Shown: positions 35,484 through 40,583 of the stretch, piece after piece | Layout: the number at the start of each line of letters is the position of its first letter | How positions within the stretch are numbered: the first letter of the stretch is position 1 | DNA from: Myxococcota bacterium | GTDB taxonomy: Bacteria > Myxococcota > B64-G9 | DNA: 40,583 nucleotides | Assembly: GCA_022710975.1 (NCBI GenBank) | Contig: JAKLGA010000011.1 | Span: forward strand, 241,842-282,424 | Direction: 5' to 3' | Program-made: the position numbers and the translations under genes | The notes under the pieces: generated by a model | Told to the model about the DNA's origin: nothing | What the model saw: only the letters and a program-made list of their open reading frames with translations | Database searches by the model: none

Positions 35484-36377
35484 TCAGAACCACAGGCCGA
35501 GGTCGACGCCGATGATCACGTCCGGCCAGGCCCGGCGGAAGTTCTCGTCGCAGGCGAAGGTCACCCACACGGCCGGCTCGAACGGGCCGAAGTGCATGCG
35601 CAGGCCCGGGCTGACGCCCAGGATGGTCGGGGCCTGGGCCCCGGTCGCGTCCTTGACCCCCAGGGGGGTGTAGCCCTTGAGCTCGACCAGGAGGGCGACC
35701 ATCTCGTGCGCGTTCCAGCCCAGGGCGCCGCCCCAGGAGACGCCGCCGGTCACGTCGCGGTTGTTCCACTCCGTCACCGGGATGTACAGGCCGACGCTCA
35801 GCTCCATCTGGAAGAAGAACATGTGGCCCGGCACCACGAAGTCGAAGGTGCCCACCAGGTTGATGGCCTCCTGCTCCTGGTGCAGGCCGGGCTGCAGGGT
35901 GTGGAACATGGTGGTGGCCGCGGCGGGGCCGGTGAAGTTGCTCGGGAACTCGCCCATGAAGGTGGGGATGTAGAGATCGATCGACCAGCCGGTGAAGATC
36001 TCGACCGCCGGGTTGGTCGGGTCCACCCGGCCCTTGAAGTTCAGGCCGATGGCGCCCAGGGCGAACTCGCTGTCGTCGGTGGCGTCGTAGGCGATGTAGC
36101 TGACCGGCAGCTCGAGCCCGATGTAGATGGGGATGCTCTCGAAGGCGTAGCCGCCCCGGAGCAGGCCGGTGTAGGCGATCAGCTCGTCGCCCGGGGAGAT
36201 CCAGTTCGAGATCTGGAACCCCGAGGCCAGGGCGAAGTTCTTGAAGCTGAAGGGGTTGAGGATTTCGCCCTCCCCCGCGGGAGCCTCCTCGTCGTCGTAC
36301 CACTGTGCGCTCGCCGGGCTGGCCAGCAGGGCGAGACCCAGGGCCAGACAGCCGATCGTCAGCCCGCTTCGTCGCAT
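35484..36377 (-). CDS. Outer-membrane beta-barrel protein
   Basis: A 297-residue protein. The ATG at 36377 (GGAGGATCCC before it) opens a signal peptide ending LLASPASAQ. The mature part has amphipathic strands and Gly/aromatic-rich segments (GGYAFESIPIYIGLELPVSYIAY, AVEIFTGWSIDLYIPTF, HMFFFQMELSVGLYIPV, FGPFEPAVWVTFA) and ends GVDLGLWF, the C-terminal Phe expected of a barrel. About ten to twelve strands fit. A DDEE run lies just after the signal peptide. Function unknown. A longer reading to 36632 crosses the promoter and priA leader and is rejected. Strong promoter at 36413-36442. Confidence 0.8.
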   Translation of the reverse strand: MRRSGLTIGCLALGLALLASPASAQWYDDEEAPAGEGEILNPFSFKNFALASGFQISNWISPGDELIAYTGLLRGGYAFESIPIYIGLELPVSYIAYDATDDSEFALGAIGLNFKGRVDPTNPAVEIFTGWSIDLYIPTFMGEFPSNFTGPAAATTMFHTLQPGLHQEQEAINLVGTFDFVVPGHMFFFQMELSVGLYIPVTEWNNRDVTGGVSWGGALGWNAHEMVALLVELKGYTPLGVKDATGAQAPTILGVSPGLRMHFGPFEPAVWVTFACDENFRRAWPDVIIGVDLGLWF

Positions 36378-36412
36378 GGGATCCTCCGCTGAATCGGGAA
36401 CATGCTGCGGGC

Positions 36413-36442
36413 ATGATAAAACACGCCGCAGAAGCTTGTCAA
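36413..36442 (-). promoter_or_regulatory. Strong promoter for the outer-membrane protein gene
   Basis: On the reverse strand a perfect TTGACA (36442-36437), an 18-base spacer, then TATCAT (36418-36413, five of six). It gives a leader of about 29 bases. An inverted repeat GAAGC (36431-36435) / GCTTC (36450-36454) surrounds the -35 box and may be an operator. It is the most consensus-like promoter in the window and lies back to back with that of priA. Confidence 0.6.
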
Positions 36443-36471
36443 AAAAGCGGCTTCGCCGGGCCTGGCCCGCG

Positions 36472-36500
36472 TTGACAGGCCCGGACCGGGGGCATACGAT
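36472..36500 (+). promoter_or_regulatory. Promoter for priA and its leader ORF
   Basis: A perfect TTGACA (36472-36477), an exact 17-base spacer, then TACGAT (36495-36500, four of six). Transcription should start near 36507. The in-frame ATG at 36499 lies inside the -10 box, so it cannot be the priA start. Confidence 0.58.
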
Positions 36501-36535
36501 GCCGCTCCGATCCACCCGGCTCCGGAGGCGCGAGA

Positions 36536-36571
36536 ATGACCGAACGAGCCTGCCTTCAGCGCAAGGCGTGA
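36536..36571 (+). CDS. 11-codon leader ORF coupled to priA
   Basis: ATG at 36536 preceded by GGAGG (36523-36527), a good ribosome site, encodes MTERACLQRKA and stops at TGA 36569-36571. The stop shares two bases with the GTG start of priA (GTGA overlap). The priA GTG itself has only a weak AAGG before it. The layout fits a leader peptide whose translation delivers ribosomes to priA. Composition gives no clear amino-acid-sensing signal. It is also possible that it is a chance short frame; conservation would decide. Confidence 0.45.
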   Translation: MTERACLQRKA

Positions 36572-38799
36572 CCTCCTCCCCTCGCACCCTCGTCCAGGTG
36601 GCGGTGGCCGCGCCGCTTCGGCGCCTGTTCACCTACCTGGTGCCCGAGGAGTTGCCCGCCGGGCTCCAGCCGGGCCAGCTCGTCGAGGTGCCGTTCGGCC
36701 GCGGACGCGCCCGAGGGGTGGTGCTCGGCCCGGCCGCGACGCCTGAGCCGGGCCTGGAGCTGAAGGCCGTGGACCGGCTGGTGGAGCCGGAGCCGGTCCT
36801 GCCGGGGCCGCTGCTCGCCACCCTGCGCTGGGCCGCCGACTACTACCTGGTGCCGCCCGGGGAGATGCTGTTCGCCGCCCTGCCGCCGCTCTTCCGCCAG
36901 GTGGGCGCGGGCTCCGGCGAGCTCGCGGTCCTGGTGGCGCGGGTCGCCGAGGGGGTCGGGCCCGAGGCCCTGGCGGGGCTCGCCGGGCGCGCGCCGCTCC
37001 AGGCGCGCCTGCTCGGGGCGCTCGTCCAGGGAGGGCCGGCCGAGGTGGCCCGCCTCGAGGCGGAGCTCGCGGGGGCGCGCGAGGGGCTGCGGGCCCTGGC
37101 GCACAAGGGCCTGGTCCGGCTCGAGCGCGAGCCGCGGGCGCGCGCGCCGGTCCCCGCGGACCTGCCCGAGGGCGCGGGCGCGGTCAGCCCCACCCCGGAC
37201 CAGGTCCGGGCGCTCGCGGAGATCCACGCCGCCCTGGACGGCGGCGAGTTCGTCACCTGCCTGCTGCACGGGGTCACCGGCAGCGGCAAGACCGAGGTGT
37301 ACCTGCGGGCCATCGCCCGGGCGCTGTCCCAGGACCGGGGCGCGGTGCTGCTGGTGCCGGAGATCGCGCTGACGCCGCTGCTCACCCAGCGGGTGACCGC
37401 GCGGTTCGGCGCCCAGGTGGCGGTGCTGCACTCGGGCCTGGGCGCGGGCGAGCGGCAGGACGAGTGGCGGCGCCTCCGGCGCGGGCAGGCCCGGGTGGCG
37501 GTGGGGGCGCGCTCCGCGGTCTTCGCCCCCGTGCCTCGGCTCGGGCTGATCATCGTGGACGAGGAGCACGACCCCTCCTACAAGCAGTCGGAGCGCCTGC
37601 CCTACCACGGCCGCGATCTGGCCCTGGTGCGGGCCCGCCAGGAGGGGGCCGTGGCCGTGCTCGGCTCGGCCACCCCGTCGCTCGAGTCCTGCGCCCACGC
37701 CCGCGGGGGGCGCTACCGCCTGCTCCGCCTGCCCGAGCGGGTGCATCAGCGGCCGCTGCCCGAGATCGAGGTGGTGGACCTGCGCGAGGTGCTCGACCCG
37801 CTGGAGCGCGCCCACGCGCTGAGCCCGCGCCTGGCCGAGCTGGTGGCCGCCACGCTGGACCGCGGGGAGCAGGCCATCCTGTTCCTGAACCGGCGCGGAT
37901 ACTCCTCCTTCGCGCTGTGCAAGGACTGCGGCGAGGCGGTGCGCTGCGCCAACTGCAGCGTGACGCTGACCCACCACCTGCAGGGGGGCGGGCTGCGCTG
38001 CCACTACTGCGGGGCGCTGCAGCCGCTGCCGGAGCGCTGCCCGAGCTGCAAGCGCGGCCGCATGCAGCTCTTCGGCCTGGGCACGGAGAAGTGCGAGGCC
38101 GAGGTGCGCCGGCGCTTCCCCGGCGCGCGCGTGCTGCGGCTGGACTCCGACAGCGCCACCGGCCGCGGGGCGGTGGCCGAGATCCTGGGGCGCTTCGCCC
38201 GCGGGGAGGCCGACGTGCTGGTCGGCACGCAGATGGTCACCAAGGGGCACGACATCCCCGGGGTCACCCTGGTGGGCGTGGTGCTGGCCGATCTGGGCCT
38301 GCACCTGCCCGACTTCCGCGCGGCCGAGCGCACCCTGCAGCTCCTGCTGCAGGTCGCGGGGCGGGCCGGGCGCGGCGACCGGCCCGGGCAGGTGGTGGTC
38401 CAGACCTTCCTGCCGCAGCACGAGTGCGTGGTGCTGGCCCGGGAGAACCGCTTCGACGACTTCGTGGAGCACGAGCTCGCGCGGCGCCTCGCCCTGGGCT
38501 ACCCGCCCGGCCGCAGGCTGCTGCTGGTGCGCGCGAGCCACGCGGATCCCGCCAAGGCCGCGGCCCTGGCCCGCAGGCTGGCCGAGGTGCTGCGCGCCGA
38601 GGGGGGCGCCCGCTGCCAGGTGCTGGGGCCGGCCGTCTCCCCCCTGGCCCGCCTGCGGGGCCGCTACCGCTGGCAGCTGCTGGTCAAGTGCCCGCGGGTG
38701 GAGGACCTGCAGCGCGTGGCCGGGGCGGCCCTGCGGCGCGTGTCCCCCCCCGCGGGCGCGAAGCTACTTTTTGATGTCGATCCGGTCGACATGCTATAG
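36568..38799 (+). CDS. priA: Primosomal protein N' (replication restart helicase PriA)
   Basis: A 743-residue superfamily 2 DNA helicase that reloads the replisome at stalled forks. The N-terminal DNA-binding region (VAVAAPLRRLFTYLVPEELPAGLQPGQLVEVPFGRG) is typical. The helicase core has GVTGSGKTE (Lys241), LVPEIALTPLL, the DEEH box (331-334), GSATPSLES, and the C-terminal helicase motif with QVAGRAGRGDRPGQVVVQT. Between these is the zinc region with CKDCGEAVRCANC starting at Cys451, then CHYCG and CPSCK: eight cysteines for two zinc ions. The start is GTG at 36568: it overlaps the leader ORF stop, and upstream in-frame starts fall in the promoter. The N-terminus is close to that of other PriA proteins. 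Confidence 0.94.
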   Translation: MTSSPRTLVQVAVAAPLRRLFTYLVPEELPAGLQPGQLVEVPFGRGRARGVVLGPAATPEPGLELKAVDRLVEPEPVLPGPLLATLRWAADYYLVPPGEMLFAALPPLFRQVGAGSGELAVLVARVAEGVGPEALAGLAGRAPLQARLLGALVQGGPAEVARLEAELAGAREGLRALAHKGLVRLEREPRARAPVPADLPEGAGAVSPTPDQVRALAEIHAALDGGEFVTCLLHGVTGSGKTEVYLRAIARALSQDRGAVLLVPEIALTPLLTQRVTARFGAQVAVLHSGLGAGERQDEWRRLRRGQARVAVGARSAVFAPVPRLGLIIVDEEHDPSYKQSERLPYHGRDLALVRARQEGAVAVLGSATPSLESCAHARGGRYRLLRLPERVHQRPLPEIEVVDLREVLDPLERAHALSPRLAELVAATLDRGEQAILFLNRRGYSSFALCKDCGEAVRCANCSVTLTHHLQGGGLRCHYCGALQPLPERCPSCKRGRMQLFGLGTEKCEAEVRRRFPGARVLRLDSDSATGRGAVAEILGRFARGEADVLVGTQMVTKGHDIPGVTLVGVVLADLGLHLPDFRAAERTLQLLLQVAGRAGRGDRPGQVVVQTFLPQHECVVLARENRFDDFVEHELARRLALGYPPGRRLLLVRASHADPAKAAALARRLAEVLRAEGGARCQVLGPAVSPLARLRGRYRWQLLVKCPRVEDLQRVAGAALRRVSPPAGAKLLFDVDPVDML

Positions 38800-38832: not shown

Positions 38833-40583
38833 ATGGCCGAGATCCTGGTCCTCGTGCCGGAACCGGAGCTTGCGGACAGCATCGCCGCCGGCGTGCGCGC
38901 CGCGGGGCTGGCCGCCAGCGTGCAGACGGAGGCCGGGGAGGTGACCGCCCGGCTGGCCGCCCGGCCGCCGGCGCTGATCGTGCTCGACCTCGCCATGGAC
39001 CTAGGGCAGGGGGTGGCCCTGTGCCACCTGATCCGCGAGGCGCCAGGGGGCGACCTGGTGCCCATCCTGCTGCTGGGCACCGGCCAGGAGGGCGTGAGCT
39101 CCTTCGGCGACGCGCTGGCCGAGGGGGCCGACTACTACTTCCAGAAGCCCGTGGACCTCGAGCTGCTGATCTCCAAGATCCAGACCTACGTGGTGAGCGG
39201 CGCGTCCTCGCCGCCGCCGGGAGGCCAGGACACGGCCGGGCCCGCCGCGCCGGGCGCAGGGCTCCCGCCCGAGCCGACCGGCGCCGAGCTGGCCGATCGG
39301 GTCGAGCGGATGATGGACCTCGGTTCGTCCTTCATGGGAGGGCTCCTGGCCCCGCCCGGCGGCCCGGACAGCCAGCCCCCGCCGGTCGAGGCGCCTCCCG
39401 CCCCGGCGGCGCCGGAAGGCGCGGGCCGCAGCCTGGCCGACGAGCTGTTCTCCGATGTGACCGCCGAGGTCGAGCAGCCCGCCGAGGCGGGCGGGCTGCT
39501 GCCGCCCCGCTCCGACGGCGAGGTGGCCGAGCCTGCGCCCAGGACGGTCGCGCAGCCCAGGTCCTCCGCGCCGCGGGAGGGCGAGTTCCGGCTCGAGCCC
39601 ATCGCGGCCGAGGACGGGGCCAGGCCGGACGGCCAGGATCTGCGCTCCTTCGAAGAGGGGCTGATGGACGCCGCGGCGCTGCCGCCCCCGACCCCGGCCC
39701 CGACCCAGGCCGAGGTGCTGCGCAGGGCGGACGACGAGCTGGCCAGGCTGGAGCGCGAGGCCCGGGCCCTCAAGCAGGCCGAGGCCGAGGCCGAGATGCT
39801 GCGCAAGGCCGAGGAGGCGGCCGCGGCCCGGGAGGCAGCCCGGGCGGCGCGCGCCAGGCACCTCGAGGAGCTCGAGGAGAAGCGCGCAGCCCAGGAGGCG
39901 GAGAGGGCGGCCGCGGCACGGGAGGAGGCCCGGGCGGCGCGCGCCAGGCACCTCGAGGAGCTCGAGGAGAAGCGCGCGGCCCAGGAGGCGGAGAGGGCGG
40001 CCGCGGCACGGGAGGAGGCCCGGGCGGCCCGCGCGCGCCACGTCGAGGAGCTGGTCGCCAAGCGGGCCGCCGAGGAGGAGCAGCGCAGGCGCAAGGAAGA
40101 AGAGGCCAGGAAGCTCAAAACGGAGATCGAGAAGAAGCGGCGGGAGCTGGAAGAGAAGAAGCGCCGCGAGGCCGAGGAGAAGAGGCGCCGCGACGAGGAA
40201 GAGAAGGCCCGCAAGGAGGCCGAGGAGAAGAAGCGCCGCGACGACGAGGAGAAGGCCCGCAAGGAGGCCGAGGAGAAGAGGCGCCGCGACGACGAGGAGA
40301 AGGCCCGCAAGCAGGCCGAGGAGAAGAAGCGCCGCGACGACGAGGAGAAGGCCCGCAAGCAGGCCGAGGAGAAGAAGCGCCGCGACGACGAGGAGAAGGC
40401 CCGCAAGCAGGCCGAGGAGAAGAAGCGCCGCGACGACGAGGAGAAGGCCCGCAAGGAGGCCGAGGAGAAGAAGCGCCGCGACGACGAGGAGAAGGCCCGC
40501 AAGGAGGCCGAGGAGAAGAAGCGCCGCGACGACGAGGAGAAGGCCCGCAAGGAGGCCGAGGAGAAGAAGCGCCGCGACGACGA
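38833..40583 (+). CDS. Receiver-like domain protein with long charged helical repeat region (truncated by window end)
   Basis: At least 583 residues, open at the window edge. Residues 1-118 form a response-regulator receiver-like domain: LIVLDLAMD with Asp52 at the phospho-acceptor position and FQKPVD with Lys105. However, the acidic pair normally present after the first strand is replaced by ILVLVPEPE, and LLLGTGQEG replaces the usual Thr/Ser-Ala switch segment, so it may be a pseudo-receiver. Residues 119-290 are a Pro/Ala/Gly-rich, partly acidic linker. From about 295 the protein is nearly all Glu, Lys, Arg and Ala, first in a 30-residue repeat, then in a 16-residue repeat. The layout is that of the myxobacterial polarity/motility proteins AglZ and FrzS (pseudo-receiver plus long helical rod); that kinship is inferred from architecture. 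The gene starts 33 bases after priA. Confidence 0.8.
39841..40050 (+). repeat. 90-bp-period repeat in the helical region
   Basis: The segment beginning CGGGCGGCGC at 39841 recurs at 39931 and, with more change, at 40021: three copies of a 30-codon unit ([15 protein letters not shown], then [15 protein letters not shown]). Confidence 0.8.
40192..40583 (+). repeat. 48-bp tandem repeat (16-residue E/K/R unit), at least eight copies
   Basis: Units start at 40192, 40240, 40288, 40336, 40384, 40432, 40480 and 40528; a ninth begins at 40576 and runs off the window. The unit encodes [16 protein letters not shown]. Copies differ by single codons: GAG or CAG at the ninth residue and AAG or AGG near the end. 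The first unit is slightly divergent. Confidence 0.93.

Follow-up and report, generated by a model that had tools for sequence, protein, structure and literature searches.

How do ribosomes reach a start codon that has no good ribosome site of its own? The question is raised by priA in a 40,583-nt stretch of Myxococcota DNA (the window, meaning the whole stretch analysed here), where the gene opens on a GTG and a short ORF with a strong ribosome site ends on that same codon.

The start codon of PriA

The priA gene occupies 36568-38799 on the + strand and encodes a replication restart helicase of 743 aa from GTG 36568. The protein scored 604.6 bits against the PriA model TIGR00595 (cut-off 230.35), and the Pfam search found the 3'BD, helicase, Zn, and C-terminal domains all present. 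The 3'BD model PF17764 was matched in full (1-96 of 96), beginning at residue 10 counted from GTG 36568 (nt 36595), and residue 4 of the solved PriA chain 8fak_H, which we take to be the E. coli protein, aligned to nt 36592; a start at GTG 36568 therefore retains the entire domain. The priA frame is open upstream to 36241, so the start codon is a matter of choice. GTG 36598 and GTG 36604 fall within the 8fak_H alignment and 3'BD match; starting at GTG 36598 would shorten the Pfam match by a single residue, and GTG 36604 is the start taken by the automatic gene caller.

Analysis of codon bias revealed that the frame turns coding-like at GTG 36568. The stretch 36538-36567, read in the priA frame, scored -8.61, a value as low as in 0.3% of 586 SD-trusted genes and equalled or exceeded by 59.4% of 483 non-coding stretches. 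The ten codons after GTG 36568 scored 0.36, with 32.9% of trusted genes as low and 4.6% of non-coding stretches as high. Among 98 distinct priA upstream stretches (described below), the distance from the last in-frame start to a conserved VAV is 10 codons in 30, which is the commonest value and also that of the window, in a tally that sums to 97 and a sample heavy in Myxococcaceae-like genomes. One member of the same family (L002) has a GTG at this same 10-codon position. GTG 36568 is the best-supported PriA start.

Anti-SD pairing at GTG 36568 is +1.2 kcal/mol, and 99.4% of called genes pair equally or more strongly, placing it in the weakest 1%; the sequence-only reading had been right to say that the priA start has no good ribosome site. 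The corresponding values are +1.2 kcal/mol for GTG 36598 and -3.8 kcal/mol for GTG 36604. A leaderless start at GTG 36568 was considered and ruled out, since no TANNNT box lies within reach and there is no -10 box near this codon.

Promoter, short ORF, and a proposed route to PriA

A putative sigma-70-type promoter, recognised by its match to the consensus, spans 36472-36500 on the + strand, with TTGACA at 36472-36477, a 17-base spacer, and TACGAT at 36495-36500. The promoter had been described from the sequence beforehand and was found again by an independent scan, with 10 of 12 consensus matches. In the 2 kb scanned (35500-37500), there were two promoter-like sites against a mean of 0.0 in shuffles, the priA promoter being the only one on the + strand; it exceeds chance expectation. 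Counted 6-10 bases past the -10 box, the transcript would start at about 36506-36510, which agrees with the earlier proposal of a start downstream of the in-frame ATG 36499. The predicted 5' leader ahead of the short ORF (36507-36535 on the + strand, as placed from the -10 box) would thus be about 26-30 bases long and include a GGAGG, which would make the start of the short ORF SD-led and not leaderless. With its start past ATG 36499, the transcript would carry a single strong ribosome site, that of the short ORF.

The GGAGG lies at 36524-36528 (+), 7 bases ahead of ATG 36536, and its anti-SD pairing of -9.5 kcal/mol is equalled or exceeded by 44.3% of called genes. From this ATG, in another frame than priA, an ORF of 11 codons (MTERACLQRKA, 36536-36571, +) runs to a TGA at 36569-36571, which has two bases in common with the priA GTG (36568-36570) and forms a GTGA overlap at 36568-36571 (+). 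All of these elements stand in the sequence as first described. The codon-bias score of the short ORF, -3.89, is ambiguous, with 6.5% of trusted genes as low and 23.4% of non-coding stretches as high, and gives no clear sign of coding selection.

The surroundings of the promoter hold further elements. A divergent promoter on the - strand, TTGACA-18-TATCAT, was found by the scan from 36442 to 36413; the -35 boxes of the two divergent promoters (36413-36500) begin 30 bases apart. A perfect 9-base inverted repeat, CCGGGCCTG/CAGGCCCGG, lies at 36456-36464 and 36476-36484 and overlaps the priA -35 box by 2 bases. The gene divergent from priA (35484-36377, -) encodes a 297-residue protein whose start looks like a signal peptide by eye and which had no Pfam match at E 0.001. 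At 38833-40581 (+), a response-regulator receiver domain is followed by a long charged repeat that runs off the end of the window.

We propose that ribosomes would bind at the GGAGG, translate the 11 codons from ATG 36536, and terminate at the TGA, and that a fraction of them would restart at GTG 36568, where PriA synthesis would begin. The role of this minicistron would be ribosome delivery, the peptide being incidental, and it may be a local solution in this genome, with priA in relatives mostly leaderless-looking or starting a short way from where an upstream gene ends. We hold this account, PriA made from GTG 36568 by minicistron delivery and restart, local to this genome, to be slightly better than even (probability about 0.55). 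Ribosome delivery is the best reading because the sole strong site serves the short ORF and because codon bias is coding-like from the GTG. It also speaks for this account that, in the genome sample described below, 4-base overlaps join 118 of 323 close gene pairs on the same strand. The earlier claim that PriA synthesis depends on translating the short peptide thus stands in part: delivery of ribosomes is kept, provisionally, and the control layer that had been attached to it is not supported. Four of five E. coli gene pairs lost much of their re-initiation when the internal SD was taken away (PMC6728339), and it counts against restart here that the priA GTG has no internal SD. If the account is true, the locus illustrates cleanly, in a natural setting, a short ORF whose sole function is to bring ribosomes to an SD-less start; little is learned from the minicistron about PriA function.

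Frequency of the layout in the same genome

The geometry was compared with a sample of 1.46 Mb of the same genome, with 1055 called genes, 481 of them first in their unit; the calls came from a home-made codon-bias script, which places starts only approximately and which also supplied the 586 trusted starts. An NTGA start was called for 137 of the first-in-unit genes. Under a strict definition (ATG-led, SD of at least 5, ORF of 3-40 codons), short ORFs ended on 2 of these starts and on 5 of 380 control stops near starts; the window is one of the two because the priA start was set by hand to 36568, from homology, in this count. ATG-led ORFs with an SD of 4 gave 7/137 against 17/380. With any start codon, the counts were 21/137 against 54/380 for an SD of 4 and 5/137 against 22/380 for an SD of 5. 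The layout of ORF and overlap is neither rarer nor commoner than chance predicts. A cruder earlier comparison of frames had found an excess in the gene frame. It gave 3 against 2 and 1 for ATG with SD 5; once every start codon was allowed, the figures were 18 against 9 and 2 at SD 5, and 65 against 24 and 15 at SD 4. Genuine start codons, which occupy the gene frame, were judged to explain this excess, and the comparison was replaced by the count conditioned on a stop being present.

These counts speak for a different reading, in which the short ORF arose by coincidence, ribosomes would initiate at GTG 36568 directly with no help from an SD, and the GGAGG and ATG would have little or no effect. 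The TGA is automatic because the GTG is followed by an A, and the overlap needs nothing more; 34.9% of called starts in the genome sample have A as the next base. The script caller left 130 of the 481 first-in-unit genes without an SD, and among divergent genes called with GTG starts the SD-less fraction was 29/61. A leaderless box was found at the called start in 30 of the 130 SD-less first genes, whereas the 273 whose SD is at least 5 included only 1; SD-less starts need not, therefore, all have a helper. Of the two strict cases, only the gene in the window is without an SD of its own; NTGA starts lacking an SD number 30 in all. Against coincidence stands the position of GTG 36568 among the weakest 1% for SD pairing. 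A null effect on the GTG is also hard to picture, since a strong SD and ATG 32 bases upstream would load ribosomes whatever their origin. We regard coincidence as unlikely, although it is the likeliest of the alternatives to delivery.

Upstream regions of priA in relatives

Comparison with relatives drew on a family sample of nine genomes, no two of one genus (eight relatives besides the window), and on priA upstream stretches taken from 115 loci in 102 genomes, of which 98 are distinct, counting that of the window. Two of 100 matched genomes (G085 and G127) were left out of the stretch set, and anchors are approximate in its most distant members. The best 80 of 592 PriA stretches from an alignment-query scan of genome contigs are distant, at 34-52% identity, and that collection may contain a closer relative. 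The strict layout (ATG, SD of at least 5) was found in 0 of the 8 family relatives, and the window is its only case among the 98 stretches; at the level of the family, the conservation proposed as a check was not seen. The pattern named beforehand as refuting the idea, relatives that lack the short ORF but keep an independent priA ribosome site, was found only in its first half: an SD of at least 4 is present at an in-frame start in only 24/98 stretches. Both the absence of a strict counterpart in 8/8 family relatives and the chance-level geometry count against delivery.

Under a loose definition (any start codon, SD of 4), a short ORF overlaps an in-frame start in 17/98 stretches, window included. 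Two of these are in the family, one of 3 codons from a TTG (L002) and one whose TTG lies within the upstream gene (L006). The sole other ATG-led case (L268) has an SD of 4 and ends on a TTG 28 codons out, and three GTG-led cases with an SD of at least 5 (L231, L234, L235) sit at starts that also bear a leaderless-type box. None of these was counted as the same layout.

A TANNNT box (at least 3 matches to TATAAT) lies 4-12 bases before an in-frame start in 62/98 stretches, two of the family (L007 and L008) among them and the window not, against 0/253 in-frame start codons inside priA; 14/98 stretches have none of the scored features. Most of the boxes in Myxococcaceae-like genomes read TACAGT and precede a GTG. 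Many Myxococcaceae-like and Anaeromyxobacter-like genomes (group names inferred; for example L010, L014, L019, L217, and L257) have a near-leaderless-looking priA, with TACAGT, TACACT, or TAGACT a few bases ahead of the start codon. A 2011 survey reported leaderless genes in 8 of 33 delta-proteobacterial genomes (PMC3160421).

In two family members (L002 and L003), metK (TIGR01034) lies upstream of priA, and its stop is 4 and 8 bases, respectively, ahead of the priA GTG as placed; in L006, a gene resembling PLP-dependent enzymes overlaps priA by GTGA. The upstream gene varies within the family: metK in L002 and L003, PLP-dependent-enzyme-like in L005 and L006 (and L004 by eye), response-regulator-like in L008, and methionine gamma-lyase-like in L009, with metK alone among these matches passing a curated cut-off. 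If minicistron delivery is true of the window, the locus shows that one gene can differ between relatives in its mode of translation start, which may be leaderless, near an upstream gene, or minicistron-coupled.

Other readings of the leader

One relative gives some ground for a reading in which an indel, from assembly or strain, between 36536 and 36568 split a single frame, so that PriA would start at ATG 36536. The SD and ATG with an MTE start resemble those of L009, whose ATGACCGAG shares the PriA frame (by eye), and the species is represented by one assembly. The fused protein would begin about 21 residues before the VAV, and the last in-frame start, which is not necessarily the true start, lies that far out in only 2/98 stretches. 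Neither of the two frames scores well for codon bias over 36538-36568, and the short ORF has no run of more than 2 equal bases. On this evidence an indel seems distinctly improbable.

The centroid fold of 36507-36580 pairs the GGAGG with a CCUCC at 36572-36576, in a stem that also takes in the priA GTG (36524-36531 / 36568-36576). The energy of this fold is ordinary, with a z-score of 1.07; the fold z-scores as a set (0.31; 1.07, 0.28, and -0.83) are like those of shuffles. A bolder form of the minicistron account, in which priA, once leaderless or coupled to a gene, came in this lineage to use the SD-led minicistron as its sole ribosome entry, with the GGAGG:CCUCC stem closing both starts and leader translation gating PriA, would be a long shot.

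Transcription from further upstream would permit PriA to start at ATG 36499 (36499-36501, +) with a 23-residue extension. This codon has a GGGGG ribosome site with a pairing energy of -8.6 kcal/mol, absent from the sequence-only reading, and its frame is open upstream. It overlaps the -10 box of the only + strand promoter-like site in 35500-37500 and is probably not transcribed; the codons up to GTG 36568, including 36538-36567, are not coding-like in its frame, and a similar extension was not noticed by eye in the 98 stretches. We consider a start at ATG 36499 very unlikely.

Least credible of all is a regulatory leader in which the minicistron would adjust priA in response to some signal, whether its own nascent peptide, a shortage of charged codons (codon starvation), or a protein that binds the RNA: the architecture resembles that of E. 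coli iraD (PMC5574718) and the GGAGG is paired in the fold, but the folds are like shuffles, inspection of the peptide found no regulatory codon run, and the relatives hold no strict counterpart. The control layer once suggested for priA is not supported, given the 0/8 relatives with the strict layout, the chance-level frequency, the shuffle-like folds, and a search of 35500-37500 that found no + strand terminator. An attenuator leader peptide was rejected for want of a codon run and of that terminator. The best Rfam match, CcsR1, reached 14.3 bits against a cut-off of 65.3 and was taken as chance.

Comparison with known systems

A literature search mostly outside subscription journals found no work combining priA, the primosome, and a uORF. 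Related architectures have been described elsewhere. Mycobacteria have a known class of small ORFs coupled by an RTGA overlap (Shell et al. 2015, PMC4633059). As predicted at priA, the short ORF is the first on its transcript, and its TGA, as here, shares the last two bases of the RTG; coupling is thought to outweigh peptide sequence, as it would here; and the class encodes 5-50 residues, which the 11 codons of the priA short ORF fit. The mycobacterial ORFs start leaderless, whereas that of priA would be SD-led, and the mycobacterial class is over-represented, whereas the present genome sample showed no excess.

In iraD of E. coli (PMC5574718), a leader ORF likewise has a stop overlapping the main start, and translation of the main gene is coupled to it. 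Experiments demonstrated that coupling, together with control by CsrA and sequestration of the iraD SD; in contrast, the priA GTG has no SD to hide, and its folds are no better than shuffles. Overlapping gene pairs with termination-re-initiation (PMC6728339) have the same 4-base stop/start overlap, but here the upstream partner is a minicistron and not a gene, and no SD precedes the second start. Short upstream ORFs are also named as possible deliverers of ribosomes in a review (PMC12548453), and the SD-less GTG of priA, with its overlapping short ORF, is probably a case of this known mode of translation start, in one genome.
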